This document shows, one piece after another, positions 1-52,404 of a stretch of 64,000 bases of DNA (the first letter of the stretch is position 1; each line of letters opens with the position of its first letter). Origin of the DNA: Dysidea avara (Eukaryota > Porifera > Demospongiae > Dictyoceratida > Dysideidae); the NCBI RefSeq assembly GCF_963678975.1, contig NC_089274.1:45104075-45168074 (forward strand), written 5' to 3'. The position numbers were made by a program, and so were the translations under genes. Under the pieces are notes generated by a model, which did no database searches, was not told the DNA's origin, and saw only the letters and a list, made by a program, of their open reading frames with translations.

Positions 1-3000
1 CTCATGACAATCATGTCTGTACCCTCGCCTGTTCTGGAAACCTTCTCTTCAGTGGATCACTAAAATCCATTAAGGTACAATGAGTAGCCACTGTGAAACC
101 TGTTAATATAGACACTTGAGAACCCAGACACAGTGTAGTTATAAGTATCCCTTACTACATAAATTTGCCTAGAAGATAAGGACACTTAGTTGGTCCCACT
201 GTGTCCATATTATGCAAATTCAATTATGTATATTTGTAATGAAGTGTATAAGATAGTGTGTGTTACTATGGTAGGTATGGGATTTGCTTACTCACAAACT
301 GGTATCAGATTTACATGGAGAGAACCACTGGGTGAGAGCCTTAAAGGCTTGTGGCAACTTCCTCTACTCTGGCTCCTACAAGACCATCAAGGTATTGTTT
401 GTATTGCAATATATAGTTGTGCATGGAATGTATGTACCTAGTGTATAGTAGTAGTACTGTATATTAGGGCTTGGGTGTTTCTAGCCAAAAATCACCCAAA
501 AACCAGCTTCACAATACCATCCTGACACCTTGGCAGTATATAGGTATAACCAAAGTTCATAATATATATACTGAGGAGAGTATCTTACTCTCATATACCC
601 CTGTAGAAGGGTGTATCGTGAAGTTATGACATAGCACTTCTGAGTTCACCCGTTTTTCTTTGTATAATTAATGATGTCATTATGGTATCGATTGAACGCG
701 TGCCTAACAACGTCGCTAGCAACTACATTAACTCCAGTTCTAAGCATTTCTCACTGAACTACAATCGTTCCTTCATGGGTTAAGACCGCTTCATAGGCGT
801 TTATTGCTAGGCCATTCGTGAATAAGCATTGGGAGTGTGAAATGGTGCTAACGATTCGTGCACTTTTACAGTTGCTTGTACATCACAAACCACAACATCT
901 TGTCGTTACACCATAACTTCACGATACACCCGGGTATATGAGAGTAGGATACTCTCCTCAGTATATATATTATGAACTCTTGGTATCCAAAAGTGCCTTA
1001 AATGCCTCCAATAGATAGCTACAAAAATATTTTTTAAACCTATTCAACGGAATTTTCTACTGACTGATTGACTGACCGACTGACTGACCGACCAACTGCC
1101 TGCCTGACAAGTGTTACTCGATAATGGCTCAGGCTATGGGCTTGATTTTTTCACTCTTCGATGTCGCTTTGTCTGTAGATGTGCCTTTTGGAATACCGCA
1201 GTACATAAAATGTACACTTCTATTTCTTTTTTGCTGACAGTCCAAGGTGTCAATTTGTGGTAGCATGATGGATGGCTTCCTGTATGGAAATGGTCCATAT
1301 TTTCATGGTGATTGGGTTGATTGCAGGGGGTGTTCTTCGTTTGTAATGTTGTGTAACGGGCTGAAAATAGGTGAAAGCGAAGCATGATGTTCACTTGACT
1401 TTTGAGTCAGTAATTGATAGTTGGGGGCGTGTGAATCATCCATAAATTTTGTGGTGGCTGGATTGATTGCAGAGGTGCTTCTCATGCTGTTCTTTGTTTG
1501 TATCACAGCGTAATGGGCTAAACATAGCTGAAAGCAAAGCGTAATGGCCATTTCACTTTTGAGTCAATAACTAATAGCTGGGGTGTGTGTTCAGACAAAA
1601 ACATTAACTCTGGTGCCATCCTTTCTTTTGATGTGGTATGTGCGGGTTCACCAGTCATAATAATCACAAAAAAGTAAACAAACAAAATTAAGAATTTAAA
1701 TTTAATTAGGGATCATAGAAAAAAGTAGGTAAACAATGGAGGTCACCTACACCTGCAGATATACTAGTGAACATTTAATCCCTAATTCAGTCATCTAGAC
1801 TGAAGTGTTGATTAAATGTTCACTAGTATATTTGCAGGTGTAGTGTGTTTCCCTACTTTTTTTAAAATGATCCCTAATCAAACTTAAAATTTCTAATTTT
1901 TTTTATACTCGTACTTTATTTCTCCGGTCCTGTGATGCTGTGTTACATCTTCTGTTGATTATGTACTCCTGTAACTAGCAGTTACACAGACACTGTGTAT
2001 AGCATTCATTTAGAGTAGAAACAGTGTTGTGTGTAAGATACGTACATCCATCTTTCCCACAGATTTGGGACCTCAATTCATTTGAATGTGTCCACATAAT
2101 GGAGCCTCATGGAGGTAGTGTCTACTCTCTCGCTGTCACTAACCAGTACATCATCTGTGGCACTTATGAGAACAACATCAATGTCAGTGAGAGAGTAGTG
2201 TTGAGTGTTTGTTAGTCTGTGTGTGGTGTCACAGGTATGGAAAGTGGAGAACCTCCAACCAGTTGGGACACTTGAAGGTGCGTACACTATCAGTTTTTTT
2301 TTTTACATGATGTATTGATATGGTGTTGTAACTATTGTCGTTAAATGATTGTGGTATGTGTGACTTCATTTCCTTGTCTGATGAATGTTCTTTAATTAAT
2401 AGTGAGTGAGTCATTATTATTATTGACTTCACATATAAATACTCTAATAGAACAATCATCAATGTTAACTCTAATAGAACACACACCAAAAATATGATTG
2501 CTAAACCAGTGATATTATTGTACTACTAGTGTTACAATTTTGTGTTGTGTGTGTACTGGCAGGTCATGTGGGTACAGTGTATGGATTAACAGTGATAGAA
2601 ACACCAGGAAATATCCGATTAGTTAGTGCCTCTTATGACAAGACACTCAGGGTATGTGTGCATGTTTGACATGTGGCAACAAAAGACAAGATTGTATTGT
2701 GAAACCTCATTAATGTAGTTACTACAGGGATCATGCCTCAATCAGATTATGAAATATATGTGGAACTGTCTGGCTGCTATATTGAAATGGCCTTTTCAGC
2801 ACTCAATGAAATGTTATTCACCCACATCATATGGAACCCATCTATTCAAATTGCTTTATTTAGTGGGTTGGGCTGGTCACTTAGTTATTAAATAACACTA
2901 TCACATTTTTGCAATGACAGTTCAGAAAGATTAAGTTTGTGTAAAGTGCTACTATATATAGTGTTAATATGTTTCTACAGGTCTGGAATATAGAGCACAT

Positions 3001-4492: not shown

Positions 4493-4626
4493 ATACATCA
4501 AAATATTTTGTCATCTTTTTTTCAATTTTTCTAACTTTCATTGTCTGTAATGCGTAAGATGACGTATGGATGCTATGTGACGCATGCGTGCCTCGTTACA
4601 TAGCAATCGGGCGTCCATCAGGTTAA

Positions 4627-27037: not shown

Positions 27038-27903
27038 TTTGACTTTGGTTTCAATTGAATTTGTACCAATATTTTAGGCATTTACCCCAAATGTTCCATC
27101 CTGGATCTTCCATTGGATCTATACCTATCTGAGCAGATCCTATGCATGCAGTTAAAATGTGATAGTGTGCACGTGCTGTATGACCAGTATATATAGAGTC
27201 AAACACATACCATGGCATACATAAGTCATATATATATAAGATGCAACCTTAAACCCTCCTAGCTAGCTATATATGTTAAAATCAAGTTACAGCCGGTTAA
27301 AATCAGAAAATTGGATACATGTGGAAGCCTTGTTTTGTCAAATTCGGTCACAAATATATTTTGTGGGAGTGGTAGCTAACCCTGATGAGGGTACTGTTAT
27401 TTCTAGAAGACCTTATTAGCATACGTATATAAACTAATGCAATTGTATTGTGTCCTTCTATGTGTAGCTAGCTGCTTATTCACTTAATTATGGATTTTAA
27501 TGCTGCCATGTCATCTTTGTACAGTCATCACAACTCATTATGACTGACATGCATACTAAAATTTTTGGAGGGAAGTTAAGAGCTCCCACGACCTCCCTTA
27601 AACTACTTCTGGTGGACAATAACAGACAATGTTACCAGTATAGCAGGAGGAATACTCACATAATGCTGAGTGAAATGGTTGAAGTGTGTCTGCCGAGGTG
27701 GTGTTGAATATTCTTCATACTAAGGTATGTATGTGTGCATGCATGAGTGCTATGGATCATAAACATTTCATGTGCATTAATTATCTCTTTTCAGTTGATA
27801 CACACATAGCTGTATGCTACTTACATATTAGCTATCAACAAGTATATGCAATATGTCCTCTCCTATAAGGAAAATTACTGACAGAGTCGCCTGGTATGTA
27901 TGT

Positions 27904-28027
27904 AATAGTTGTAACACGGGCATGAGGGCTTTGCCTGATATGGTATACCTGACTTCCTGAGGGCCACAGGCCCGAGGGCAGAGGGCATACATATCAGGCA
28001 AAGCCCAAATGCCCCGTGTTACAGCTA
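27904..28027. mobile_element. Palindromic MITE (AACACGGGCAT family), copy 2
   Basis: TAGTTGTAACACGGGCATGA on the left mirrors GCCCCGTGTTACAGCTA on the right, with inner arms GGGCTTTGCCTGATATG and ATATCAGGCAAAGCCC. It is followed by an ATGT microsatellite (28048-28085). Confidence 0.85.
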
Positions 28028-29124
28028 ATATGTAACACTTTTCAGACGTACATATGTATGTAATGTATGTATGTATGTATGTACGTTAAATAAGAGTAGC
28101 TATATATTAGGGTGGGTGCATGGGGTGCCAAAGCATCCCCTCCAATGTGTTAGCAACTAGAAAGCTAGTAGAAGTTACACTACAAATGTAATTGCATCTT
28201 AAAGATGGAAAGAGCAAGAAGGGAAGCTGAAGCTAAAGTCTCTTCTAGGAATCAACAAGAAGGGTTAATTAAAATTTTATTTTATGTGCAAAACCGCTAA
28301 AAGCTACTAATAATCAAAATACTCTTATAGAACAGTAAATTACTGTACTAGAATATTTATCAATAAAAACATTCTAAACTAAAAGGAACAAAGACCCGTA
28401 TGTATTTGAGCAATTCTCCTTCTTGACTTGTGTACTGAATCTCACCATTGTACCAAGCATCCAATTGCTGCCAGAAAGTGATTGACTGGTATCATTTAAA
28501 ATTGGCACATAGTTGCTTGCAATGTTAAAACTGTATCCTGTTATCAGTCCAGCTTAGGGGCACTTGCCTGAGATTATGTGTGAAGATATACAATAGGCTG
28601 GTATGTAATGATTTGTAACATAACTTCTTTAAAACACATGTGAGTCAAAAAAAGTAGTGATGTACAAAATAAGCATTACTTACAGGATAATAATAATATG
28701 AATGAATGCAGTAATTAGCTATGAATGTGTGATATTGTAATATGGAGCAGACCTGGATCAAGCACTCAATCACTTGCAAAAGTGTTTGAGCGCAGGCACA
28801 AATGTTGATTATGCTTAAATAAATTGCTTCAATTACAAAATGAAGCACTATAAAAGTGGGTAACAATTTAAGTATTTATTGCAACTATAAACAAACAGTA
28901 ATCGGTAAAGTGTTTCATCATTTAATCTACACCTCTCAGACCTGAAAAATTTCCCTACATGCACCATGCACTAAATAATCACTTTACAAGAACAGATGAT
29001 GCAGGAATTCCTTACTGCTACTTTGTCTGCTAGCACTTTTGGCTGATATTTCATTGAAGCAAAGTTGGGAGCCCTTGTGTTTTAAAGTGCTGCATAAAGT
29101 GCTTATAAGTACAAGTGCCTTAAG

Positions 29125-29178
29125 CAGTGCAGATCCAGACATGACAGGGGGCACATGACAGAGGGGCATACATGTGCC

Positions 29179-29209
<31 letters not shown>

Positions 29210-29679
29210 AGTTAGATATGTACTCTAAGAGAAGGCGGTAAAATAATCTAATAGAACAGTCACAGTATGTTACACTATTAAGAATCCTCCACTGAGTATG
29301 AATACTTGCATCTATAGTACCAACCCATGGGCACATTTAGAAATGTATCCTGTTAAAGGATTTTATTTTGCAAATTATAAGTTTACTTGGTCTTTTGTAT
29401 GTCATCCTGACAATTTACTCTTGGCTGAGTTGGCTCATACATGACTGTCGCTGATCCTTACATGCAGTTCTTTATCAATGTAGACCACTTAGAAAGTATG
29501 ATTTATTACTATGATTTAAATATATTTCTACACTGCATCAAAATTTTCAGTCCTGAAGCATGTAAAATATACCTATAGATTCTGGGGCCTCCAGACCCCC
29601 TGCTTTATATATAACTACCTACTACCCTAGTCATGGTGCACCCCCCCCTTCCTTTGTCAAACCCTGTATCTGCCCCTGT
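29125..29679. mobile_element. GGATCC-end element in unit 1
   Basis: It begins CAGTGCAGATCCAG and ends with the inverse form ATCTGCCCCTG, flanked by TTAAG on both sides. It is present at the same place in unit 2 (35095-35638), so it predates the duplication. Inside is a C homopolymer of about 26 bases followed by A10 (29178-29210) and copies of the 19-bp motif. Confidence 0.65.
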
Positions 29680-29744
29680 TAAGTACGTGACCGATGTCTG
29701 ATGTAAAGTATACAACAATTGATAATGGTACTATACAATATAGG

Positions 29745-30506
29745 TTAGATATTGCATCTGGTTGGTCTGATCTTTATCTCGATGAATGGGAGAAAATGCC
29801 ATTTTGAATTTAAATGTATTCCATCCCAGTGATTATAGAATATGTTAGGAGCAGTACGGTGGCATTTACCAAACCACCATCCTCCAAGTGGAACACTATG
29901 ACCACGATAGAGGGCACAGTTTACACCGCTATGTGAATCATTGTCACTGTCTTTAGTGGTGAAGTTCTTTCCATTGTGAGCTCTCATTGGATCAGTAGTG
30001 GTCCCCTGGAATCCTCCAACAGTTAGTTTGTACTTGTCTTTAGCTGATGCAACTTTAAACTGCTCATATTGGAAGAAGAGCTTAGTACCATTAGTTAACT
30101 TGATGTCCATTCTCATTTCCCAACCACCTTGACCAGTGAGACAATGGAGGGCTCTCAGTCCGTACCAAAATTCCCCAGTTAATTTCCCAAATCCATCTTC
30201 ATACCCAACCCAGGTCCTGTTAAAGTCAACAGATCCATCTTCTCTCCTCTGTACCACTAACCATCCTCCTCCTCCATTGATAGTGTCACAATAAGCCTCA
30301 GCCTCCAAATGATCATCCCTACAGACATTGGGAATGACATAAATTCCTGATTGTCTAGTCTTCCTGGAGAAGGTGAAACTACCATATCCTAGATCACAAC
30401 AGCTGTTAATGACATGAATACTATTGGTCTGTTGACCACTGGAGAGTGGTAGTATCCCAACAGCCAGTAGTAGTATTATTGTAGTAATAGTAGTAGTAGT
30501 AGTCAT
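29745..30506 (-). CDS. Secreted fibrinogen-related lectin FReD-1
   Basis: A single uninterrupted frame of 253 residues. A threonine-rich start (MTTTTTITT, encoded by an ACT repeat) leads into a signal peptide ending near SSGQ. The rest is one fibrinogen C-terminal domain: CCDLGYG, AYCDTINGGGGWLVVQRRED, GSVDFNRTW, GFGKLTGEFWYGLRALHCLT, TTKDSDNDS (the DxDND calcium site), NCALY, GGWWFGKCH and IKIRP. Such stand-alone FReD lectins (ficolin, tachylectin type) bind acetylated sugars on microbes in known animals; that role here is inferred. No collagen or coiled-coil stalk is seen. Unlike ficolins, the LNGxY segment after the WW-CH motif reads APNIFYN. Its 3' third matches the fragment at 35710-36018 better than FReD-2, suggesting a mosaic gene. 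Confidence 0.9.
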   Translation of the reverse strand: MTTTTTITTIILLLAVGILPLSSGQQTNSIHVINSCCDLGYGSFTFSRKTRQSGIYVIPNVCRDDHLEAEAYCDTINGGGGWLVVQRREDGSVDFNRTWVGYEDGFGKLTGEFWYGLRALHCLTGQGGWEMRMDIKLTNGTKLFFQYEQFKVASAKDKYKLTVGGFQGTTTDPMRAHNGKNFTTKDSDNDSHSGVNCALYRGHSVPLGGWWFGKCHRTAPNIFYNHWDGIHLNSKWHFLPFIEIKIRPTRCNI

Positions 30507-30527
30507 TGTAGAGCTACTGATGAACTA

Positions 30528-30558
30528 GAGATCACCTCACAATGTGATCTCTTTATAG
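30528..30558 (-). promoter_or_regulatory. FReD-1 core promoter: TATA box plus 24-bp palindrome
   Basis: Reading on the minus strand, CTATAAAG is followed at once by GAGATCAC-attgtgag-GTGATCTC, whose 8-bp arms are perfect, and the ATG follows 21 bases later. The same arrangement sits before FReD-2, FReD-3 and the pseudogene. Confidence 0.7.
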
Positions 30559-30590
30559 CAGTGGTGTACAATGAAATGTGATAAGTGATG

Positions 30591-30928
30591 CAGGGGCGGA
30601 TCCAGAGTTTCGAAAGAGGGGGGGCACCTTTCTGAAAAACAGTTGAAGACCAAAAAACTTGCTGAAAACCAGTTGAAGACCAAAAAAAAAAAAAAAAAAA
30701 GGTCACAACAATAATAGCTAGTTATCCTTACCAACTATATCACGTCTGTTATGTAAAATAAAATCCTATTTGTAGCTTCATAGGTAAGCTACACTGCCTC
30801 ATGAACATTGTGACTGCTTTATTAGAGTACTTGACTGCTCTATTAGAGTATCTCGATCTTGTATGCAATTTCTTGAAGAGGGGGGGGGGGGCATTTGCCC
30901 CAAATGCCCCATCCTGGATCCGCCACTG
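30591..30928. mobile_element. GGATCC-end element inserted in unit 1 only
   Basis: Termini CAGGGGCGGATCCAG and CTGGATCCGCCACTG are 15-bp inverted repeats with one mismatch. GTGATG flanks both sides (30585-30590 and 30929-30934). Unit 2 has an intact single GTGATG at the matching point (near 37350), so this is a filled site with a 6-bp target duplication. Inside are A18 and G12 tracts and two tandem copies of the 19-bp motif. No transposase is present. Confidence 0.88.
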
Positions 30929-31154
30929 GTGATGTGACACATGTACATATATAGTCAATATAATTGCACTGCTACTCCAGCTTGCTGATCCATATAATTA
31001 ACTGAATGGAGTGTGTATAATTTTATAATAGCCTAACTGTCATATATGGTAATTTTTATAGTTTTGCACACATTATGGCCAAACATTCAGTTCTAAGATT
31101 ATTACCACGTGGTGTGAAGCCATGCAGGTGCATGTCTGTTACACACTAAAATCC

Positions 31155-31490
31155 ACTATAAGAATATGTGGGCATGATTGTCTAGTAGTCACAGCATTGG
31201 GCTGTTAATTCAGGGATCCCAAGCCAGGGATAAACTTAAGTAAATATGTTTTGAAACCCTTATCAAGAATAGACTGTCAACTATACACTCCTTCCCATCA
31301 GCAATAAAGTTATGGAACAACTTACCCTTGAATGAAGCAGGAACAACACTAGAGAGATTTAAACAGTTGATAAACTTCATTTTTATTTAACTAGTTTGTA
31401 GTTAATCATCCAATCTATCGTGCAAAATCATAATTTCCTGTACCTCACACTCCCTGATGGAGGCTCTAAATACAATACAATATGTTGGCT
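31155..31490 (+). mobile_element. tRNA-like head joined to LINE 3' tail, unit 1 copy
   Basis: Bases about 31165-31240 look like a degenerate tRNA (TGTCTAGTAGTCACAGCATT, then GGGATCCCAAGCC as a weak B box). Bases 31262-31389 encode RLSTIHSFPSAIKLWNNLP, the typical end of a non-LTR reverse transcriptase protein. It ends in ATACAATACAATAT. The counterpart in unit 2 is 37588-37915. It may be a SINE with a LINE-derived tail. Confidence 0.5.
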
Positions 31491-33325
31491 TAAGTTTAGT
31501 ATTATGTATGTTAATGGTATAACATTGTCTTCAGCTTTCTGAAGGGTTGTGTTGACCATATGTTGAAGTACACACCATGCATGTGGTAACATGATGAGAG
31601 TTTGTAGATACTACAATGAGTGGAATGGTTTTATTGGTATTAACATCATCATGTGATGTAACGCTTGTCAGAGGAGTACATATTCTGAACAACATGAGGA
31701 TGGTGATGGACAACAACAGAATACGTAACTATTTATAGGATTAACAAACAATAGTATAGTAGCTGATCAACAAACAAGAGTATAGTAGCTGTAAGTTGTA
31801 TAGGTGGATAGATGTGTTTAGTATGCTAAAAGCATCCTCTTTGAAAATTTCATCATTTTATCATTTAGTACGTAGCTAGGCATAGGCATATATGTAGCTA
31901 GAAGATGTTAGAAGTGTAATTCAGCATAAGCAATATATGTACACAGATGAAGGGCAAGGAGAAGCGTTAAGTAGGTGATTAAATTATATCTGTTGTAGCA
32001 AGGCTTTACATATACTTTAATCTTTAATACAACTACTCTAATAGAATGTTCAACAGATTTCATTAAAACTTTATTACATATTAATATATAGTAGAAACAG
32101 TGTGTGAGCTGAAATAGAACTTCTATCATTATCAGTTTATTTCTGCATTGCTATCTCACCATTAGGTAGGGTTTCCAACTCAAAATAAGAAGGTGCTTCC
32201 ATTTGTTGTTTCTGGTGATTTTCACACAGATCGACCTTTACGATAAAGCAAAAAAGTGCTAATTTATTATTGGATTGCTTGTAGCATTGGGTATCAGCAT
32301 AAGTGTAACACACAAAAACATATAAAAGGGGTCACGTGACCAAAAATATCAAAATAGTTGAATTGGGAAGCTTAATACAAAATCATTGTATTTTAGGATG
32401 ACCGAAGTCACAATTAGTATATTTTCTTGTCTTATAATGAAGACTTCTACATCTTGTAGTGCTTTAGCATCCTGTGTAGCTGTGATGGGATTGTTGGCCA
32501 CATGACCCGGGCCACTTTTGGGTACTTACAGTTAAAACTGCACTGACATTGAAGGTAATAGACGGTTTACTAATATATTAGCACTTGTTTGTTTTATCTT
32601 AAGGTCAGTCTGCATAAAAATCATCAGAAATAATGAAAAAGGCTAAGGCATCATCTTATTTTGCAGTGGAAATCCTCCGTATATGGAGGGATTTTTGGTC
32701 ACGTGGCCATGTGGATATTTACATATGTTAAAATTGTGCTGATAGTGACTGCTGCAAACGATTAGCGCTTGTTTACTTTATCTTAAAGGTAAATCTGTGT
32801 GAAAATCTCCAGAAACAAGAAAATGAAGCACCTTAGTGAAAACCCTACATTAGGTAAAACATCCTGCTATACCTACATATGGGTTACAGTATTCATACCA
32901 TGTTAGTTGTTAAATTATATTTACTCTTTGGTGTGTTTTAATATCTGTTCCATAACAAGCTGATTAGTATTAATTCCAGTGACATTAGAAACATCTTTAA
33001 AACTAACAGGGATTCTAACTGTCTTTTTAAACTAGCTTGACAATGACTATTGGGAAGACAAAATGGGTGGAGATTGTATCATTGCTCTCTCTATAGCATG
33101 TAGCTATGTATGTAAAAGACGTATGTGAAGTGTGTCTGTGAGGTGATGTTGAATGTTCTTCATACTAAGGTATGTATTTGTTCATGAGCGCTATGGATCA
33201 TAAATATTTCATGTGCATTAATTATCTCTTTTCAGTTGATACATACATAACTGTATGCTACTTACATATTAGCTATCAACAAGTATATGTCAAGAATTAC
33301 TGACGGAGTCACCTGGTATGTATGT

Positions 33326-33438
33326 AATAGTTGTAACACGGGCATGAGGGCTTTGCCTGATATGTATGCCTGACTTCCTGAGGGCCGGCAGAGGGCATAC
33401 ATATCAGGCAAAGCCCAAATGCCCCGTGTTACAGCTAA
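33326..33438. mobile_element. Palindromic MITE (AACACGGGCAT family), copy 3
   Basis: The orthologous position of copy 2 inside unit 2. It is nearly identical but about 11 bp shorter at the palindrome centre, followed again by an ATGT microsatellite. Confidence 0.85.
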
Positions 33439-33989
33439 TATGTAACACTTTTCAGATGTACGTATGTATGTAATGTATGTGTGTATGTATGTATGTACCT
33501 TAAATAAGAGTAGCTATATATATATAGGTATCTCTAAATGGTTAAGATGTAATTCTGACCAATAAGAGCAAGTCATAAATTTTGAATATTGCAAAATAGT
33601 TCAATATCAATATAACAAGTCAAACTGATGTTACCATTGTCATATTCTCAGTTATTTATGGGTACATACAAATATATCAATTCATTGCACACCACTAAAC
33701 TCTCTGTGATCATAAGGGAAGATTTAGGGTGGGTGCATGGGGTGCCAAAGCATCCCCTCCGAAATTTTACTATGTGTTAGCAACTAGAAAGCTAGTAGAA
33801 GTTACACGCAGCTTAAAGATGGAAAGAGCAAGAAGGGAAGCTGGAGCTAAAGTCTCTTCTAGGAATCAACAGGAAGGGTTAATTAAAATTTTATTTTATG
33901 TGCAAAGCCGCTAAAAGCTGCTATTAATCTAAATACTCTTATAGAACAGTCAACTACTGTACTAGAACATTCATCAATAAAACATTCTT

Positions 33990-34272
33990 ATTAGTACTTT
34001 ACAGTGTCCAGCACTGAAGGTCTGACAGCAACATGTGCTGCAGGCCTGCAGCCTTTGGATTATCCTAACCTAACAGGAACTGGAGACTTAATGATTACTT
34101 TAACTTAGCTAACAATAAGGTGAAACAGAAAAGGGCCAAAGAAAGCCTCCTACCCAAGGATTTGAACTGCAGGCCACCCAATGTCTAGTTAAGCACCACA
34201 CTCAGTCTCCTCCAGGAGGGATGGATTTTCTTCCTTTAAACCTAAGTATTTATTGTTATTTGTACTTTACAG
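33990..34272 (-). mobile_element. tRNA-derived SINE inserted in unit 2 only
   Basis: On the minus strand the head has a tRNA-like stretch ending in CAGTTCAAATCCTTGGGTAG, a good B box. The body carries TTTCACCTTATTGTTAGCTA and GTTAGGTTAGGATAATCC. ACATTCT flanks both ends and occurs once in unit 1 near 28368, so this is a filled site. A 28-bp direct repeat (GTGCTGGA..ACTGTAAAGTAC) lies at both ends of the insert, suggesting a partial dimer. A truncated relative is at 43855-44040. Confidence 0.75.
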
Positions 34273-35094
34273 TATCCAGCACATTCTAAACTAAAAGGAA
34301 CAAAGACCAGTATGTATTTGAGCATTTCTCCTTCTTGACTTGTGCACTGAATCTCACCATTGTACCAAGCATCCAATTGCTTAAAAAGTTAAATCCAATG
34401 CTAGAAAGTGATTGACTAATGTCATTTTAAATTGACACATATGGTTGCTTGCAAAGTTAAAACTGTAGCCTGTTATCAATCCAGCTTAGGGGCACTTGCC
34501 TGAGATTATGTGTGAAGGTTTACAATAGGCTGGTATGTAATGATTTGTAACATAATTTCTTTAAAACACTTACATGAGTCAAAAAAATAGTGATGTACAA
34601 AACAAGCATTGATTACAGGATAATATAATGTGTAATAATTAGCTATGAATGTGTGGTATTGTAATTTGGAGTAGACCTGGGTCAAGCAATTAGGTTGAGT
34701 GCTCTTCAAACATTCAATCACTTGCAAAAGTGCTTGAGCAAAAGCACAAATGCTGATTATGCTTAAATATAGTAATTGCTTCAATTACAAAATGAAGCAC
34801 TATAAAAGTGCTTACTTAATTACTTGAAATTAGATAACAATTTAAATATTTATTGTTACTATGAACAAACAGTAATCGGTAAAGTGTTTCATCATTTAAT
34901 CTACACCTCTCAGACCTGAAAATTTTCCTACACCACTAAATAATCACTTTACAAGAGCAGATGATGCAGGAATTCCTTACTGTTACTTTGTCTATTAGCG
35001 CTTTTGGCTGATATTTCATTGAAGCAAAGTTGGGAGCCCTTGTGTTTTAAAGTGCTGCATAAAGTGCTTATAAGTACAAGTGCCTTAAGCAGTG

Positions 35095-35638
35095 GCAGAT
35101 CCAGAGGAAGGCAACAGGGGGGCGCATGACAGGGGGCACGTGTGTACCCCCTCTCCCCCCCCCCCCAAAAAAAAAAAGATACGTACTCTAACAGAGCAGT
35201 CAGTCACATACTCTAATAGAACAGTCACTGTATGTTACACTATTACATGTAAGAATCCTCCACTGAGTATGAATATACAATACCAACCCATGGGCACACT
35301 TAGAAATGTAACCTGCTGAAGGAATTTTTTTTGCAAATTATATATTCACTTGGTCTTTCGTATGTCATTCTTATATGACAATTTACTCTTGGCTGAGTTG
35401 GCTCGTACGTGACTGTCGCTGATCCCTACATGCTCTTTATCAATGTAGACCACTTAGAAAGTATGATTTATTACTATTATTTAAATAGTTCTACACTGCA
35501 TCAAAATTTTCAGTCCTGAAACATGTAAAATATACCTATAGGTTCTGGGTGGCCCAGACCCCCTGCTTTATATATAGTTACCTACTACCCTGGTCATGGT
35601 GCACACCCCCCTTTGTAAAACCCTGGATCTGCCCCTGT
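35095..35638. mobile_element. GGATCC-end element in unit 2
   Basis: The unit 2 copy of the element at 29125-29679, starting GTGGCAGATCCAG and ending CTGGATCTGCCCCTG with TTAAG on both flanks. It has a C tract, an A tract and two copies of the 19-bp motif (35184 and 35209). Confidence 0.7.
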
Positions 35639-35709
35639 TAAGTGCTTGACCCATGTCTGATGCAAAGTATACAACCACTGATAATGGCATATACTATATA
35701 CAGTGTGGG

Positions 35710-36018
35710 TTAGATACTGCATCTGGTTGGTCTGATCTTTATCTTGGTGAATGGGAGAAAATGCCATTTTGAATTTAAATGTATTCTATTCCAGTGATTA
35801 TAAAATATGTTGGGAGCAGCATGGTGGCATTTACCAAACCACCATCCTCCAAGTGGAACACTATGACCATGATAGGGGCACAGTTTACACTATGTGAATC
35901 ATCACCATCTTTAGTTGTGAAGTTCCCTCCATTGTGAGCTCTCATTGGATCAGTAGTGGCCGGTTCCCTGGAATCCTCCAACAGTTAGTTTGTACTTGTC
36001 TTTAGCTGATGCAACTTT
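35710..36018 (-). pseudogene. FReD 3' fragment
   Basis: This minus-strand stretch matches the last 300 bases of FReD-1 (29745-30055) closely, including its 3' flank, but stops abruptly at GCTGATGCAACTTT. The frame is broken: after TTKDG the reading drifts from the FReD sequence through small deletions. It has no promoter or signal peptide. It looks like the remnant of a neighbouring FReD gene whose 5' part was deleted. Confidence 0.85.
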
Positions 36019-36510
36019 TCATACATAAGTAGCTACATACCTATACGTACAGTATGTAGCTATTTCAAGCACAAATGAATTTTTAGTTTCAACAAATACC
36101 CTCCCCCCTCCCCCCTACCCAGGTCTCACATTACACTAGTTGTAAATAGCATTTTGTCACTGAGTCAAAAAGTGAAATGATTTACCATCATGTCATGGAG
36201 AATCTGTGGCAGTGAAATATTTGAAAAACATCATTTTCTGATGTCTGCATGCTTTACTGTGAGCCTTGAATGCAAATGCCTGTAAGCAAATTGATCGGTG
36301 ACATACACAGTGGTAGATACTACAGTGTAAGTGTAAATAAGCTTGTGTACACCGAGTCTTTTGACTAACACTTTATGTAATTCATGAGCTTGTAGCTAAC
36401 ATGCATGACATTCTACACAGGAAAGCAATGGACATTGCAGTATGACATGGAATACATGATACGTAACAATGGTGTGCATTATTGAGTCCAAAAAAACTAT
36501 ATAATGTAGG

Positions 36511-37272
36511 TTAGATGTTGCATTTAGGTGGCCTGATTTTTATCTCAATGAATGGGAGAGAGTGCCACTGTCCATTGAGAAAAATTCCCACATGAAAATT
36601 ATAGAAATTGTTTGGAGCAACTTCAAAGCAATGTATATAATGCCACCATCCTCCAGATGGTGATCCTGGAGCATACAACAGTGCACAATTCCTCATGTAT
36701 GAGTCATTGTCACTGTCTTTGGTAGTGAAGTTCATTTCATTGTGAACTGCCATTGGATCAGTAGTGATCCCCTGGAATCCTCCAACAGTTAGTTTGTACT
36801 TGTCTTTAGCTGAAGCAACTTTAAACTGTTCATAATGGAGAAAGATTTTAGTACCATTGGCTAACTCGATATCCATTCTCATTTCCCAACCACCTTGATC
36901 AGTGAGACAATGGAGGGCTCTCAGTCCATACCAAAATTCTCCATTCAACTTGCCAAATCCATTTTCGTACTCAATCCAGTTCCTGTTAAAGTCAACAGAT
37001 CCATCTTGTCTCCTCTGTACCACTAACCATCCTCCTCCTCCATTGATAGTGTCACAATAAGCCTCAGCCTCCAAATGATCATCCCTACAGACATTAGGAA
37101 TGACATAAATTCCTGATTGTCTAGTCTTCCTGGAGAAGGTGAAACTACCATATCCTAGATCACAACAGCTGTTAATGACATGAGTACTATTGGTCTGTTG
37201 ACCACTGGAGAGTGGTAGTATCCCAATAGCCAGTAGTAGTATTATTGTAGTAATAGTAGTAGTAGTAGTCAT
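36511..37272 (-). CDS. Secreted fibrinogen-related lectin FReD-2
   Basis: An intact single-exon frame of 253 residues. The signal peptide and first ~170 residues are nearly identical to FReD-1 (AYCDTINGGGGWLVVQRRQD, GEFWYGLRALHCLTDQGGWE). The last 80 residues differ much more: MNFTTKDSDNDSYMRNCALL, APGSPSGGWWHYIHCFEVAP. The DxDND calcium motif is kept. The ligand-pocket segment is changed from that of ficolins, so sugar preference cannot be predicted. The TATA box and palindrome lie at 37294-37324. Expected to be secreted and to act in recognition or defence, by family analogy. Confidence 0.9.
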   Translation of the reverse strand: MTTTTTITTIILLLAIGILPLSSGQQTNSTHVINSCCDLGYGSFTFSRKTRQSGIYVIPNVCRDDHLEAEAYCDTINGGGGWLVVQRRQDGSVDFNRNWIEYENGFGKLNGEFWYGLRALHCLTDQGGWEMRMDIELANGTKIFLHYEQFKVASAKDKYKLTVGGFQGITTDPMAVHNEMNFTTKDSDNDSYMRNCALLYAPGSPSGGWWHYIHCFEVAPNNFYNFHVGIFLNGQWHSLPFIEIKIRPPKCNI

Positions 37273-37293
37273 TGTAGAGCTACTGATGAACTA

Positions 37294-37324
37294 GAGATCA
37301 CCTCACAATGTGATCTCTTTATAG
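37294..37324 (-). promoter_or_regulatory. FReD-2 core promoter: TATA box plus 24-bp palindrome
   Basis: Identical to the FReD-1 element: TATAAAG then GAGATCAC-attgtgag-GTGATCTC, 21 bases before the ATG. Confidence 0.7.
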
Positions 37325-37587
37325 CAGTGGTGTACAATGAAATGTGATAAGTGATGTGACACATGTACATATATAGTCAATATAATTGCACTGCTACTCC
37401 AGCTTGCTGATCCATATAATTAACTGAATGGAGTGTGTATAATTTTATAATAGCCTAACTGTCATATATGGTAATTTTTATAGTTTTGCACATATTATGG
37501 CCAAACATTCAGTTCTAAGATTATTACCACGTGGTGTGAAGCCATGCAGGTGCATATCTGTTACACACTAAAATCCACCATAAGAAT

Positions 37588-37915
37588 ATGTGGGCATGAT
37601 TGTCTAGTGGTCACGGCATTGGGCTGCTTGCTAATCCAGGGGTCCCAGGCCAGGGATTCACTTATTTTTTGAGACCTTAATCAAGAATAGCCTGTCATAT
37701 ACACTCCTTCTTCCCATCAGCAATAAAGTTATGGAACAACTTACCCTCGGATGTAGCAGGAACAACACTAGAGAGATTTAAACAGTTGATAAACTCCTAC
37801 TTAACTAGTTTGTAGCTAATCATCCAATCTATTTTGCAAAATTGTAATTTTCCTGTGTGCCTTGTACTACTTGGCGGAGGCTCTGCACAGTAATAAATAC
37901 AATACAATATTATGT
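37588..37915 (+). mobile_element. tRNA-like head joined to LINE 3' tail, unit 2 copy
   Basis: The duplicate of 31155-31490. The tRNA-like head reads TGTCTAGTGGTCACGGCATT, closer to a real tRNA A-box region than the unit 1 copy. The SAIKLWNNLPS remnant of the reverse transcriptase tail is still readable. Confidence 0.5.
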
Positions 37916-38041
37916 TATGTTGGCTTAAGCTTAGTATTATCTTAATGGTATAACCTATACTGCTATTGTCTTCAGCTTTCTGAAGAGTTGTGTTGACCAT
38001 ATGTTGAAGTACACACCGTGCATGCGGTAACATGTTGAGAG

Positions 38042-38636
38042 TAGGGCTGAAACGGATAGCAACTTTTACTATCCGGATATCCTGAACAAAACCTATCCGG
38101 ATATCCTACGGATAGTGACATCATCACTTGCTATAGAAACATTTTATAGTTTATTTTAAACATCCTTGTTTTACTAGTACTAGAAGCAAACAAACATTAA
38201 CATGATAGCAAAAGTTTGTGGTAATGTTACAGTGTTACTTTGCACCGTCTGTAACAAGATTGGCAGCTGGAGAAAACATGAATACAAGATGTAGCAGTTG
38301 CTACAAGACTTTTTCCAGGTACAACTAGTCGTAAAGAACTCTTTGTAAGGCAATAACTATTCTGTTACAACTTCTTCAGTAACATTCACAGCCTCGCTTC
38401 GTAATTTAGCGATGGGCGTGGTCGCGAGCAAACTGATTAACTTACCAGGTTGCTGTTAACTTCACATAATCTAGCTTAGCTAACTCTCCATGATGAAAAT
38501 TGATTCATCTGGTGATGAGAAAGTTGGACAGATAAATGGCTTTAAGTTATTACTATCCGCTTGGCTTCAAAGTACTATCCGGATAGTAAATTATTATCCG
38601 GATATCCGGATAATACGGATATCCGTTTCAGCCCTA
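38042..38636. mobile_element. hAT-type non-autonomous element in unit 2 only
   Basis: Termini TAGGGCTGAAACGGATA and its inverse TATCCGTTTCAGCCCTA are flanked by a perfect 8-bp duplication GTTGAGAG (38034-38041 and 38637-38644). Unit 1 has the unoccupied site near 31590. Subterminal TATCCGGATATCC repeats cluster at both ends. The 8-bp target site and TAGGG ends fit the hAT superfamily. No transposase frame. Confidence 0.9.
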
Positions 38637-39370
38637 GTTGAGAGTTGGTAGACACTACAGGTGAAATGTTTTCATTGGCATTGACATCATGTGATGTAGC
38701 ACTTGTCAGAGGAGTACATACACTGGACAATATGAAGATGGTGACGGACAACAACAGGAAAAGTTACTATTTGTAGGATCAACAAACAGTAGCTGTAAGT
38801 TGTAGAGGTGGATAGGGGTGTTTAGTATGCTAAAGCATCCTCCTTGAAAATTCCATCATTTCATCATTTAGTACGTAGCTAGGCATATAGCTGGAACATA
38901 ATTGTATCTTCAGCATAAGCAATGTACAAAGATGAAGGGCAAGGAGAGGCATTAAGTAGGTGGTTAAATTATATCTGTTGGAGCAAGGCATACTTTAATA
39001 CAACTACTCTAATAGAATGTTCAACAGATTTCATTAAAACTTTGTTATATAATGTGAGCTGAAATCGAACTTTTATCTTATTCAGTTTATTTCTGCATTG
39101 TTATCTCACCATTAGGTCAAACATCCTGCTATACCTACATATGAGTTACAGTTTTCATACCACATTGGTTGATTATATTTACTTTATTGGTGTGTTTTAT
39201 CTTTCCATAACAAGCTGATTAGTATTAATTCCAGTGACATTATAGAAACAAAACTAACAGGGATTCTAACTGTTCTTTTAAACTAGCTTGACAATGACTA
39301 TTGGCATGACAAAAATGTGTGGAGATTGTATCACTGCTCTCTCTATAGCACATAGCTGTGCAAAAGACAA

Positions 39371-40913
39371 TTATTCAAATTGAGAAAAATATGAATTAGA
39401 TGCATAATATAGCTACTATTAAAATTCTAAATGTCTTAAAATCTACGGGTGTAAAATTGCTTCAAACTAAATGTAACTAAATTGTACATAGTTTTCATCT
39501 CATTCAGTCCAAAATTACTTCCAGATCTCAATCATTTCTCTCAAATTGCTCAATCTCGTTTCCTGGGGAAGTATATGTTTCTAGTCCCCCCTTCCCCTAT
39601 AGTTGGTGAGAACTCTCGTTAGCCTTCCCCTAGACTGTTATTTGCACACTAGCCTCTCTTCTCTTTAACAGTTTGGACTACCATGACAATAAAATACAGT
39701 GTGTACTACAAGAACAAATGCATTTTTAGGTTCAACAAATACCTCCCCCTCCTGGTCTCAGATTACAGTTAGTTGTAAATAACTTTAGTCACTGAGTCAA
39801 AAGTGAAATGATTCACAATCATGTCATGAAGAATGGCACATGTATCTGTGACAGTAAAATATTTGAAAAACATAATTTTCTGATGTCTGCTTTTCTGTGA
39901 TCCTTGAATGTAGATATAAATGCCTTTCATCCTGCTAAACAAATTGATCAGTACCATACATACACAGTGGTTGCTAAAGTCAGAGATACATATGTACTTT
40001 ACACTATAGCCTATACACTCTCAACACTCTGCAATTGCACAATGTATAAAATGGCATAGAGAAGATATGTGGGTTTGATATAAATTAGAGCCATTCGAGT
40101 CAAAATACTTTGATATTGTTTAATAATGCTCAACCAAAGCAACTTAGTGGCTAGATTTAGAGAGGGCAGCACATTCAGGGTTCTCAGCTCCCGGTAAAAC
40201 ATGTACTTAAATAGGATGCTACCATAATTTTATGGCGATGACTATCATTAAGATACTGTACAAGTAGATAATCAGTAAATGCAGGCATTATACAGATAGA
40301 CTTATGCATTTGATTATGTATAGATACATTTGTTAATGGAGACTGGTTAAATAAATGAACCAACTTATTATGTTTCTGCTGAATGTTCTATTAGAGTAAT
40401 TAGGTGACTATTCTGTTAGAGTATCTCGATCTCTTGCATTCCCAATTTTTGATTGAAAACCATCAATACATTAAGTATATGCATGAAAATCCTTGGTCAC
40501 ATGCAACCACAAAGACTGGCTCAAAAATGAAACCAGTGTGGGCATGGCAAGGTTACAGTTAGCTACCTCTAATTTACGTATAGCATTCCATTCTTGCATA
40601 ACGTTTAGCACAAATCCTAAGGCAAAGTAAATTGGCCATGCATGATAAGATAAAAGAAGTACAATAGTTGCTGTACTTTAGTAGGAAAAGTTCCCCTCCA
40701 CCCTTCCAAGTGTGGGAGCAGCCGTTGCTCCCTCTACCCCCCCTTATTTCACTGACCCTGCTATCAATAGTAGCTGTGTGACTAGAGCAACACTATAATT
40801 TTCCATAGCCATGTACTACAAACACTATTTTGACTGACCAATGATAATTATAGCTACGGGGTTAGCCAGTATATGCAACAATACAATACACAGTAAAAAC
40901 AAACTAGCTATAA
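39371..40913. other. Remnant FReD 3' flank and intergenic sequence
   Basis: Bases about 39690-40000 match 36070-36310, the 3' flank of FReD-2, which marks an older third copy of the duplicated unit. No gene is seen. Confidence 0.5.
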
Positions 40914-41288: not shown

Positions 41289-42040
41289 AGTAGATGTTGC
41301 ATTGAATTGGCCTGATTTATATTTCAATAAATTGGAGAATTGATGGTTGGTCATTACAAGGTAAACACCATTAAATCAATTATAGTAGCTATTTGGAAAA
41401 ATAGACCAGCAAGCACTGAACTGCCATCCCCCATGTTCAGCATTAGCACCAGTACAATTTCCAATCCCTTGATCATCATCACTGTCTGCAGTGGTTAAAT
41501 TCATTTAGTTGTGCCATGCCCATTGGATCAGTACAGCCCCCCTGAAATCCTCCAACAGTAAGGTTGTATTTGTCTTCAGCTGATGCAACTTTAAACTCTT
41601 CATAATGGAGAAAGACTTTAGTACCATTAACTAACTTGAGGTCTATTCTCATTTCCCAACCACCTTGACCAGTAAGACAATGGGGCTCTCAACCCATACC
41701 AAAATTCTCTAGCCAATTCACCACATCTACCTTCATACTCAACCCAGGTCCTGTTAAAGTCAACAGATCCATCTTATCTCCTCTGTACCACTAACTGTCC
41801 TCCTCCTCCATTGATAGTGTCACAATACACTTCTGCATCATAACATTTTACACCACAGAAATTGACCGGTGTACACTCCTGATTTCCTCCAGTTGAAGAC
41901 ACTAGTGTTGAAGCCAAGACAACAGCAACTTTAATAGGAACATTTTCCTTAGGACATCCCGCTACTATTCCAATAGCCAGTAATAGTAGTCATTGTAGGG
42001 CTAGTCATTGTATTATTGTAATAGTAGTAGTAGTAGTCAT
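41289..42040 (-). pseudogene. FReD pseudogene
   Basis: A full-length but broken FReD gene on the minus strand with an intact upstream TATA box and palindrome (42062-42092). The signal peptide region is scrambled by a short local duplication around CCCTACAATGACTACT. A base is missing just before the first CC motif compared with FReD-3, a TAA replaces the Gln codon in VVQRRQDG, and the normal stop context is lost. Sequence such as GCPK and CYDAEVYCDTI is closer to FReD-3 than to FReD-1/2. Confidence 0.85.
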
Positions 42041-46152: not shown

Positions 46153-46896
46153 ATGACTACTACTACTATTATTACTACAATAACACTACTACTGGCTATT
46201 GGGATAGTAGCAGTTCTAGCTGGATGTCCTAAAGCAAATGCTCCAATTGAAAGTTGCTGTTATCTTGGCTTCAACACTAGTGTCTTCAACAAGAGGAAAT
46301 CAGGAGTGTACACCATGGTCAATTTCTGTGGAGTAAAATGTTATGATGCAGAAGTGTATTGTGACACTATCAATGGAGGAGGAGGATGGTTAGTGGTACA
46401 GAGGAGACAAGATGGATCTGTTGACTTCAAAAGGACTTGGGGTGAGTATGAAGATGGATTTGGTGAATTAACTGGAGAATTTTGGTATGGACTGAGAGCC
46501 CTCCATTGTCTTACTGGTCAAGGTGGTTGGGAAATGAGAATAGACATCAAGTTAGCTAATGGTACAAAACTCTTTTTCAATTATGAACATTTTAAAATTG
46601 CATCAGCTAGAGACAAGTACAAATTAACTGCAGAAGGATTCCAAGGGACCACTACTAATCCAATGGGGTGGCACAATGGAAACTACTTTACCACTACAGA
46701 TAACGATAATGATGGATGGATTAGTGGGAATTGTGCTGGTGCTGATGCTAAAAATGGTGGATGGTGGTTCACTGCTTGTGCAACTATTTCTCTCAATGGT
46801 TACTATGGCCAAGTTAATAGTGTATATCTTTATGGCCAGCCATATGTTCTCAAATTCAGTGAGATGAAGATCAGGCCAAGGCAATGCAGCATTTAA
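46153..46896 (+). CDS. Secreted fibrinogen-related lectin FReD-3
   Basis: A single-exon frame of 247 residues with the Thr-rich signal peptide (MTTTTIITTITLLLAIGIVA). The fibrinogen domain has CCYLGFN, CYDAEVYCDTINGGGGWLVV, GSVDFKRTWGEYEDGFGELT, GEFWYGLRALHCLTGQGGWE, TTTDNDNDGW (calcium site), GNCAGADAKNGGWWF and FSEMKIRPRQCSI. It keeps the SLNGYYG segment near the ligand pocket, as in ficolins and tachylectins, which FReD-1 and FReD-2 have lost. It is the only plus-strand member and the closest relative of the pseudogene at 41289-42040. Role by family: calcium-dependent secreted recognition of acetylated ligands; unproven here. Confidence 0.9.
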   Translation: MTTTTIITTITLLLAIGIVAVLAGCPKANAPIESCCYLGFNTSVFNKRKSGVYTMVNFCGVKCYDAEVYCDTINGGGGWLVVQRRQDGSVDFKRTWGEYEDGFGELTGEFWYGLRALHCLTGQGGWEMRIDIKLANGTKLFFNYEHFKIASARDKYKLTAEGFQGTTTNPMGWHNGNYFTTTDNDNDGWISGNCAGADAKNGGWWFTACATISLNGYYGQVNSVYLYGQPYVLKFSEMKIRPRQCSI

Positions 46897-50265: not shown

Positions 50266-50324
50266 AAAACACACACATGCACATGTGTGTAAATAAACTT
50301 CGTCAGTTTTTTGTTAGCTGTACA

Positions 50325-52354
50325 GTACACAGTCCAGTTTCCAATCTGTGACTGGCATCATGATAGGGAGAAGAGACATGAATATGCCAACAATGGGTTG
50401 ATGACTGTCTCATTTACTCTATATAAGTTAAGTTCACCACCACTGCAGCTGATGGAATGGGTGATGCCATCTCTCAGTGATGAGATTGGTAACTACCAAG
50501 CACAACTGTTAATTCTTACAGCATTGTGATGGGATGGATGATATGTAAATTAAGCTTTTCTTTGGATATACAATCATGTGTACTGTGCTGTTGCCGAAGT
50601 TCAAATTGCTGTGCAGGCTTAGTTGTATTATTTATAGATTTGAGCCTTTCAATGACTGTCTGTAATAATCAATTATAGCTGTGCTTAATCTATGTAACTG
50701 TCAGCTTTTTATCAGTGAAAGCTTGCAATATAACTAAAATGACATGATGTGTACAGTATAGACTAATACTCTAATAGAACAGTTAGTATACTCCTAATGT
50801 ACTCTAATTAAGTAGTTGGTAAACCCTCAATGTACTCTAATTGAGTAGTCATTTTATTGTTGTCAGATCCCTTATTCAATCACGTAGCAATGTACATTCA
50901 GTGGGTAATTATGTTTCTGGCATGATATTCAGTATGAAGGTGCATGGATTTCATAGTAAGTACTTGTTTACTTCAATCTAAAAAAGCCATGAACCTGTGA
51001 GGTCTATACCACTGAAGATAATCAGATAATCATTTAACTGAACCTTAACAGAGTTGGCGTTCTACACCTGAGCTAAAGAATAAAGTTTGGGAGATGAGCT
51101 ATTATCCATATAGCTCATCTCCTAAACTTTATTCTTTAGTTCAGGTGTAGATATACTTCTATACGTTATAAACTCTTGGAGCTAAGTATGTGCAAATAAT
51201 ACTGTATAGATATATAGCTCATCTCCCACACTTTATTCTTTAACTCAGGTGTATATAGAATGCCAACTCTGTTAAGATTCAGTTAAATGATTATTTGATT
51301 ATCTTCAATGGTGTATATGAGCAGGCCTCACAGGCTAGTGGCTTTTTTAGATTGAAGTAAACAAGTACCTACCATGAAATCCACCCTCATACTGAATATC
51401 ATACCAGAAACATGATTACCAGTTGAATGTACATTGCTACGTCATTGAATAAAAGATCCGGCAGCAATAAAATGACTACTCAATTAGAGTACATTGAGAG
51501 TTTACCGACTGTTTAATTAGAGTACATTAGGAGTATACTAACTGTTCTATTAGAGTATTAGTCTATACTGTACACATCATGTCATTTTAGTTATATTGCA
51601 AGCTTTCACTGATAAAAAGCTGACAGTTACATAGATTAAGCATAGCTATAATTGATTTTTACAGACAATCCGGCAATATATTGTTAATCATTGAAAGATA
51701 ATTAAAATTTTGTGATTCAAATCTATAAATAATACAACTAAGCCTGCATAGCAATTGGAACCTCGGCAACACACAAATACACATGATTGCATATCTAAAG
51801 AAAAGCTTAATTATCCATCCCGTCACAATGCTGTAAGAATTAACAGTTGTGCTTGGTAGTCACCAATCTCTTATAACTGAGAGGTGGCATCACCCATTCC
51901 ATCAGCTGTAGTGGTGGTGAAGCTTAACTTAGCTATAGAGTAATGTACCTATCAATGTTATCCCCCACCTCCCCCCTCCCGGGCGTAGTGGGGGAAATGG
52001 TGGGGATTTGACTTTTTGAAAAATCAAATTCTCCACCCACTGGGGAACAACTAGTGGTCAAATCTCCATGTAGTATCGCTGGAATAAACTTTAGGAACAG
52101 ATCAATTCTCATAGCTCGCAAGCTAAAGCAAACGCCTAAAATTTCGAACGGTCAAATGCCCCACTAGTGGGGCAAAATTTCTGATCAAATCGGCGAAAAT
52201 CCCCCACTAATCCCTTAGTAAGCCCGGGAGGGGGGTAGTGGGGCTTAACATTGATAGGTGCATAAATGAGACAGTCATCAACCCATTGTTGGCATATTCA
52301 CATCTCTTCTCCCTATCATGATGCCAGTCACAGATTGGCAACCGGACTGTGTAC
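50325..52354. repeat. 2.03-kb inverted repeat with ~0.8-kb arms
   Basis: The left arm (50325-about 51102) starts GTACACAGTCC; the right arm (about 51213-52354) ends GGACTGTGTAC. Landmarks mirror in order: CATCATGATAGGGAGAAGAG, ATGAGACAGTCATC-type block, AAAAGCTGACAGTTAC, TACTCTAATAGAACAGTTAG, TTTCTGGCATGATATTCAGT and CTTAACAGAGTTGGC. The centre (51103-51212) has a third short copy of the innermost segment. The arms differ by scattered changes and one 319-bp insertion. It could be a large fold-back transposon or a local inverted duplication; no transposase is present. Confidence 0.85.
51944..52262. mobile_element. PIF/Harbinger-type MITE nested in the inverted repeat
   Basis: Termini TGTACCTATCAATGTTA and its inverse TAACATTGATAGGTGCA are flanked by TAA on both sides (51941-51943, 52263-52265). 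The other arm of the big inverted repeat has a single TAA at the matching place, proving a filled site. A 3-bp TAA duplication is typical of PIF/Harbinger. Subterminal GC-rich blocks (CCCCTCCCGGGC) recur at both ends. Confidence 0.85.
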
Positions 52355-52404
52355 TTCTGAATTTAATCTGGCTTCTAGTTAAAAAAAAAAAGCTGCAGTG
52401 AAAC

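Follow-up and report, generated by a model that had tools for sequence, protein, structure and literature searches.

Mosaic genes for secreted fibrinogen-C proteins in the sponge Dysidea avara: probable exchange of gene pieces by gene conversion

Introduction

In the zebrafish NLR-B30.2 genes, the N-terminal and NACHT parts fall into groups that are not followed by the divergence of the B30.2 part, and gene conversion is reported to act unevenly along the gene (PMC4852459). Among the primate CEACAM genes, an N-terminal piece is reported to have been converted repeatedly between paralogues that face microbes (PMC8860441), and the fibrinogen-domain proteins (FREPs) of the snail Biomphalaria glabrata are described as being diversified by gene conversion and point mutation (PMC12074976). 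Snail FREPs are also termed somatically diversified in the title of a further report (PMC3313920). The present work deals with two fibrinogen-C (FReD) genes of the sponge Dysidea avara, here called F1 and F2, which lie in two tandem units of a 64,000-nt window. This window is the whole stretch of DNA that was analysed (C3:45104075-45168074 of a 550.8 Mb assembly with 108 contigs), and all coordinates given below are positions in it. It was found that gene pieces have been traded between members of the FReD family, most likely by ectopic gene conversion, in addition to an older tandem duplication and fragment loss.

The zebrafish NLR-B30.2 genes offer the closest pattern among the reports seen, alongside the shuffling of primate CEACAM genes. 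As in the fish (PMC4852459), the family is very large and its recognition part is almost or fully independent of the N-terminal grouping. The fish NLRs, however, carry the recognition domain on an exon of its own, whereas the sponge genes are uninterrupted, code for secreted FReD proteins and hold a cassette of about 165 bp within one reading frame. Positive selection is reported for the fish genes (PMC4852459), whereas the ratio of nonsynonymous to synonymous divergence (dN/dS) was below 1 here wherever it could be computed. The CEACAM genes share the repeated conversion of an N-terminal piece but are described as few in number, coding for cell-surface proteins with immunoglobulin-like domains and under positive selection (PMC8860441).

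The sponge proteins consist of a signal peptide and a FReD only. Snail FREPs carry one or more N-terminal immunoglobulin domains in front of the FReD, and ficolins combine a collagen-like stalk with it. The domain is the same as in ficolins, tenascins and angiopoietins, but no collagen stalk, EGF or coiled-coil part was seen in the sponge proteins of about 250 aa. The exchange mechanism is of a known kind, here in a new instance. At the level of titles and abstracts, with most subscription journals outside this scope, no description of exchange within sponge FReD genes was found in the literature, and pattern scans of viral contigs and prokaryote genomes gave no confirmed relative.

Results

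A recent tract shared by F1 and F2

F1 (29745..30506, minus strand) and F2 (36511..37272, minus strand) are uninterrupted open reading frames for secreted fibrinogen-C proteins of 253 aa each, with PF00147 matches at E 2.7e-48 and 6.1e-50, respectively. The first-pass annotation had described the 5' two thirds of F1 as nearly identical to F2, and had predicted one sharp switch in identity near 30055. The near-identical part was found to be shorter, comprising the first ~265 of 762 coding bases and ~680 bases upstream, 338 of which belong to an insert present in unit 1 only. Identity was ~99% over 30243-30590, stayed at this level in the upstream flank as far as ~31184 and was ~89% beyond. Three differing sites were counted in 30243-30590 versus 23 in 30063-30242. 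The switch lies at 30216-30242, about 190 bases away from 30055.

A fit with two breakpoints was carried out on the F1/F2 columns from 30000 up, with the diverged 3' end and the insert excluded. The best tract was 30216..31184 in unit 1, interrupted by the insert, and 36982..37606 in unit 2. Inside it 7 of 625 aligned bases differed, compared to 24/216 on one side and 43/400 on the other. The gain in log-likelihood was 30.1, while the maximum in 100 shuffles was 11.9. The tract, with ~99% identity between F1 and F2, spans the promoter, the signal peptide and the first third of the coding sequence. Both its ends lie inside homologous sequence, as conversion predicts; older events are not distinguishable in this way.

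Past the tract, the middle of F1 (30063-30242) is 13% from F2, in the range of other paralogues (8-17%), in contrast to ~1% in the 5' tract, and the 3' ends of the two genes are ~30% apart. The synonymous divergence (dS) between F1 and F2 was 0.034 for residues 24-72, 0.413 for residues 89-148 and 0.766 for residues 169-253, so the tract is recent. Its noncoding part showed 3/256 differences against 40/344 in the adjoining stretch, which is not explained by selection at the protein level. The 338 bp insert (30591..30928) has inverted ends (CAGGGGCGGATCCAG) and a 6 bp target duplication, GTGATG; since it lies inside the tract and unit 2 lacks it, it is probably younger than the tract.

A fusion at GCTGATGCAACTTT (30055) was rejected by the comparison of F1, F2 and the gene fragment of unit 2 as well as by the two-breakpoint fit. 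GCTGATGCAACTTT lies in a stretch that is similar among F1, F2 and the genes close to them and is uninformative on exchange. The similarity between F1 and the fragment ends there because the fragment is broken off at this point.

An exchangeable cassette among the relatives

The comparison was extended to 30 loci, namely F1, F2, F4 (a further gene of the window) and 27 others. Sixteen of the 27 entered a test with 19 genes, while L020, which has a third cassette type, L025, whose cassette is damaged, and nine distant genes were left out; typed by cassette, the set held 10 beta and 9 alpha genes. A larger set of 31 genes (17 alpha, 14 beta) was taken from 33 aligned rows, L020 and L064 being omitted for want of a clear type. 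The 33-row alignment did not take in ten of 20 small pieces (L057-L063, L066-L068), which either had no cassette or were distant.

After the signal peptide, a cassette of ~165 bp was found to exist in two types ~50% apart, first in the 19 and again in the 31 relatives. In F1 it occupies 30291..30458 (minus strand, about residues 17-72) and in F2, by alignment with F1, 37057..37224 (minus strand); both are of the alpha type. In the sliding comparison, its borders at about nt 48 and 215 of F1 (30458 and 30291) were both sharp, with a precision of ~12 bases (24-base windows, step 12). On the left it is bounded by a TATA-like box, a palindrome, a leader and the signal peptide, which are common to alpha, beta and the third type (L020). 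On the right follows a conserved block of 48 bp, block X (30242..30290 in F1 and 37008..37056 in F2, both on the minus strand), in or near which exchange appears to end. Block X showed 85-100% identity in most pairs of 21 genes, within types as between types, and lower values for L020 and some pairs with L009 or L010.

With the 19 genes, the distance in the cassette (residues 24-70) was 0.156 within types and 0.512 between types, with 0 of 5000 permutations as high. For the whole remainder from the middle to the C end it was 0.237 in both cases (2177/5000). The individual segments gave, within and between types, 0.207/0.222 for the signal peptide (148/5000), 0.052/0.052 for block X (2295/5000), 0.112/0.112 and 0.124/0.124 for the two middle segments (1994/5000 and 2012/5000), 0.128/0.123 for the core (4802/5000), and 0.295/0.302 and 0.386/0.383 for the segments C1 and C2 (701/5000 and 2997/5000). 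Fourfold sites behaved alike, with 0.103/0.101 in block X, 0.275/0.272 and 0.134/0.143 in the middle and 0.383/0.378 in C2. In the 31 genes the cassette again separated the types (0.180 versus 0.495; 0/3000), and the segments outside it differed by at most 0.008: signal peptide 0.218/0.216 (1713/3000), middle 0.144/0.146 (789/3000), C1 0.305/0.303 (2079/3000) and C2 0.391/0.396 (576/3000). Distances in the cassette and in the middle-to-C part were uncorrelated in beta genes (r 0.07) and in all genes together (r -0.05). From the cassette type, the remainder of a gene can therefore be predicted poorly or not at all. This supports, also among close relatives, the core claim of the first-pass annotation, an exchange through which a common secretion module is combined with different binding ends.

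The core promoter and 5' leader shared by F1 and its relatives (30507..30558, minus strand) were recognised by eye from the TATA-like box and the palindrome (30528-30551). The block was seen, with variants, in 17 of 20 close genes and was unclear in L015, L017 and L019. In F1 and F2 the palindrome GAGATCAC...GTGATCTC stands directly 3' of the TATA-like box, and the sequence upstream differs between paralogues. The palindrome is possibly a shared control element.

Conflicting trees and mosaic genes

For the part before block X, the alpha genes formed one clade (99/97) and the beta genes another (98/96). In the tree of the part after block X (20 genes), a starred group of seven comprised three beta genes, three alpha genes and L020, and a single alpha clade was rejected by the approximately unbiased test (p-AU 1.3e-5). 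The alpha group in this test was defined by the cassette alone. Conversely, the part before X rejected a group of L003, L009, L012, L013 and L018, which are alike after X (p-AU 1.7e-47); this test is post hoc, as the set was picked after pairwise comparison of segments. Together with the independence of cassette type from the rest of the gene, the tree tests indicate that pieces were exchanged across the family, often with an end in or near block X.

Single genes showed the same mixture. L003 (beta) and L018 (alpha), which lie ~11 kb apart on contig C7 (~14.07 Mb), show zero synonymous differences over residues 89-148; their cassettes are unrelated. A segment-by-segment comparison of 21 further rows revealed three clear mixtures, L053, L054 and L055, in which an alpha front is joined to a middle and C end closest to those of beta genes. 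Parts of one gene thus have different histories at neutral sites, as is typical of mosaics made by conversion.

With regard to L003 and L018, 0 of 156 bases differ in the middle and the C ends are diverged; this is a second clear recent tract, consisting of the middle alone.

Of 465 gene pairs, 84 (45 alpha-alpha, 23 beta-beta and 16 mixed) had a tract whose excess identity surpassed that of every one of 1860 simulated nulls. Eight of the 50 pairs listed had a tract that started within the first 33 bases and stopped at nt 264-292, namely F1-F2, F1-L053, F2-L053, F1-L054, F2-L054, L004-F4, L005-F4 and L007-F4 (for instance, 0..264 in F1-F2, 6..291 in F1-L053 and 33..282 in L004-F4). Internal breakpoints fell within nt 192-335 in 52 of 128 cases, the gene pairs sharing history and not being independent. 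This clustering near block X is suggestive of an exchange hotspot without proving one.

The same data bear on the view that there was no exchange, strong selection having kept the middle alike while the cassette diverged in two ancient lineages. The protein of the middle is indeed conserved (dN/dS 0.08-0.48 in eight of nine pairs; the ninth, L003-L018, has dS 0 and gives no ratio). However, fourfold sites are as far apart within as between types, the F1/F2 tract includes noncoding DNA and the tree tests reject a single history, which makes this explanation scarcely credible. For residues 169-253, dN/dS was 0.36-0.83 in nine pairs. Positive selection on the binding end was considered and found unsupported, since dN/dS stayed below 1 where computable.

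Size of the family

Searches of the genome gave 510 candidates with F4 as query and 505 with F1, of which 150 were scored in each case. For the Pfam model Fibrinogen_C, 150 of 496 candidates were scored, and all 150 reached at least 139.8 bits (cut-off 22 bits). These counts are lower bounds, and stop codons occur in some of the matches; at most of the places listed there is a single open frame of ~250 aa. A published table gives 59 Fibrinogen_C for Dysidea avara (PMC12909245), under half of the matches found here, the two counts having been made differently. F1 and F2 are members of a very large family, mostly of intronless genes for secreted proteins with a single FReD. Among the matches listed, many are located on contigs C2, C3, C4, C7, C9, C13 and C15.

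Of the 28 best places for F1 (at least 291 bits; F1, F2 and F4 included), 27 were already in the gene set, and one, L069, was added. Since the F1 and F4 queries yield the same close group, the pattern is not due to the choice of query.

History of the two units

The window holds one family of four FReD genes or pseudogenes (F1 to F4) and one 3' fragment. Self-comparison and unit alignment, together with flank searches for unit 1, placed unit 1 at about 27680..33105 and unit 2 at about 33126..39357. The gap-free differences between them were 141/1963 in the left flank and 40/344 and 20/200 in the distal right flank, in agreement with the tandem duplication that had been proposed. In the right part, ~31605-32840 matched poorly in the global alignment, yet pieces of it matched in the self-comparison. 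A piece of a dispersed repeat (31252-31484), LINE-3'-end-like by eye, is present in the right flank of both units and thus predates their duplication.

The gene content had also been described correctly, with one FReD gene in unit 1 and a 3' fragment followed by a full gene in unit 2; F1 and F2 are open frames, and the fragment (35710..36018, minus strand) is a broken 3' end. It differs from F1 at 18 of 305 sites, with 11 further gap columns, and has stops in all three frames of its strand. Next to it lie the 3' flank, 3' end and middle of F2 (36019..37010, minus strand); unit 1 contains nothing close to this 3' end and flank. No near-identical copy of the F2 3' end and flank (36019-36830) was detected in the genome search, an absence that does not show rarity. 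This stretch had its best long match in F1 (77% across 333 bases), and a conserved piece of 149 bases was 90% alike elsewhere; the middle of F2 was at most 91% like any of 20 other genes compared. A part of the flank, flank f (36048..36314), had its only other match at 39695..39971, between unit 2 and F3, as seen by genome search and alignment. This second copy, like F3 and F4 themselves, had been overlooked in the first-pass annotation. The two copies of f are identical in 223 of 298 columns, with 52 gap columns, and show 23/246 gap-free differences, about the divergence of the units.

That the two units are haplotypes placed in tandem by the assembler, a concern raised in the first-pass annotation, appears very improbable. 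Sponge haplotypes can differ strongly, but the units differ by 7-12% with large indels, and the 3' ends of F1 and F2 by ~30%. Searched stretches of the flanks (673 and 1367 bases) matched at full length in these two units only, without a third full copy in the 108 contigs, and their other matches were pieces of dispersed repeats. Moreover, the pattern among the relatives is independent of tandem order.

The first-pass annotation had suggested an ancestral unit with two tandem genes, a and b. In unit 1, unequal crossing-over would have joined the front of b to the middle and end of a, giving F1, and in unit 2 the 5' part of a would have been lost, leaving the fragment. Such an ancestor can be entertained only tentatively, and with a crossover at 30216-30290, in block X, instead of at 30055; a chimeric F2 is equally possible. 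As the genome search revealed no near-identical donor for the 3' end and flank of F2, a b-type gene may have been resident. On the other hand, the fronts of F1 and F2 would be expected to differ by 7-12%, like the units, and the observed ~1% means that later conversion would still be needed. Two separate deletions are also required, and the copies of f, which differ about as much as the units do, give no sign that b predates the duplication.

Alternatively, F2 could be the chimera, a full copy of F1 in unit 2 having been replaced or invaded by a b-type middle, 3' end and flank f, with the fragment left behind; this history is just as tentative. Unit 2 reads as unit 1 with 36019-37010 substituted for the middle of F1, the fragment is the unit copy of F1, and f recurs beside the neighbouring F3 in a copy that is roughly as old as the unit duplication. 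Against this, no near-identical donor of 36019-36830 was found in the genome search and the 3' coding end of F2 is not close to that of F3. Thus, either a two-gene ancestral unit underwent a different loss in each unit, or the F1 copy of unit 2 was overwritten by the end of another gene. The recent tract shared by F1 and F2 is a later event under both histories.

The other FReD genes and the encoded proteins

F3 (about 41291..42040, minus strand) is a pseudogene with stops and frameshifts, and F4 (46153..46896, plus strand) is an intact open reading frame for 247 aa with a PF00147 match at E 1.3e-49; both carry a beta-type cassette. In F1, F2 and F4 the PF00147 match covers profile positions 13-220 or 13-221 of 221, nearly the full length, which assigns them to the FReD proteins. 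Fibrinogen_C was the only Pfam domain found, behind an N-terminal stretch that resembles a signal peptide by eye. The Pfam search of the three proteins revealed no immunoglobulin domain, PF00147 being the sole match, and no collagen-like stalk was found either there or in the protein alignment.

An acidic calcium-site motif ahead of an NCA box is a hallmark of FReDs. A putative motif of this kind reads DSDND...NCA in F1 and F2 and DNDND...NCA in F4, where it was aligned with DRDND...NCA of tenascin-R. The best match of F4 to FReD chains in the PDB (ficolins, tenascins, angiopoietins) was at 1.4e-40. In view of the domain family and of earlier sponge work, F1, F2 and F4 are likely lectin-like secreted proteins that recognise microbial surfaces. 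Several fibrinogen-like genes of Dysidea avara are reported to shift expression strongly after exposure to microbial molecules (PMC6208332), which fits such a role.

Other features of the window

Two similar tandem genes or exons of the KN/TALE homeobox type were observed at 3941-5883. An imperfect palindrome of ~1 kb (50654-51670, 87%) lies within 50324-52355, with outer arms at 50414-50643 / 51717-51943 (89%) and 50324-50416 / 52263-52355 (96%). A long open frame of 701 aa at 53737-55842 matched the hAT dimerisation domain (PF05699, E 4.6e-5).

Discussion

The exchange across the FReD family is probably due to gene conversion. F1 and F2 share a recent tract reaching from upstream of the promoter to block X, with ordinary divergence of paralogues past X. 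In the proposed course of events, the exchange would start or be resolved in the conserved blocks that flank the cassette (promoter and signal peptide on one side, X on the other), which would supply the homology, and its outcome would be secreted lectin-like proteins in which front part and binding part are recombined. Before this, the unit was duplicated in tandem, and an F1-like gene of unit 2 would have lost its 5' part and become the fragment.

Several observations weigh against this explanation. Unequal crossing-over is also conceivable in place of conversion. The tree of the part after X has low resolution, with 2 of 17 inner branches starred, and pairs F1 with F2 (82/86), so the two may be old local sisters. 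On this tree the alpha label needs 5 changes, shuffled labels needing 6.9 on average (54 of 500 shuffles were as low), and within the alpha genes alone the cassette and middle-to-C distances hint at covariation (r 0.50; 107/2000). The exchange has consequently not led to complete mixing, and some shared alpha descent remains. A weak association of the signal peptide with type was seen in the 19 genes (148/5000) and was not found in the 31 (1713/3000), where the core (0.145/0.153; 147/3000) and block X (0.064/0.069; 178/3000) showed a borderline, tiny one.

The position of the breakpoints is also to be read with care, as those near X are imprecise and gather at its edges because X hardly varies. 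In the middle and C part, moreover, 5 of 10 pairs of segments were less correlated than one tree predicts, in a simulation with guessed rate parameters. The numbers of 200 simulations as low were 0 for C1-C2 and mid2-C1, 2 for mid1-core and 4 for mid1-mid2 and core-C2, the remaining five pairs being inside the simulated range (13 to 99 of 200). Block X is hence one border among several, and the mosaic structure of the genes seems to extend to further places, the cassette being the clearest case.

A more far-reaching view is that the family acts as an active generator of diversity in an early-branching animal. The flanking conserved blocks would be standing exchange sites, and cassettes and binding ends would be combined almost freely across hundreds of secreted lectins, perhaps differently in different individuals or even cells. 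This is considered unlikely.

Exchange of gene pieces, most likely by ectopic conversion, is thus the preferred reading, and it provides a clear instance, seen at neutral sites, of front and recognition parts recombining in a very large secreted FReD family of a sponge. Defined genes, a cassette and an exchange block are now in hand for testing conversion in populations. With a sponge among the cases, a way of diversifying known from reports on fish NLRs, primate CEACAMs and snail FREPs would lie near the base of the animals. Through the traded front pieces, parts would be newly combined in proteins with a possible role in recognising microbes.

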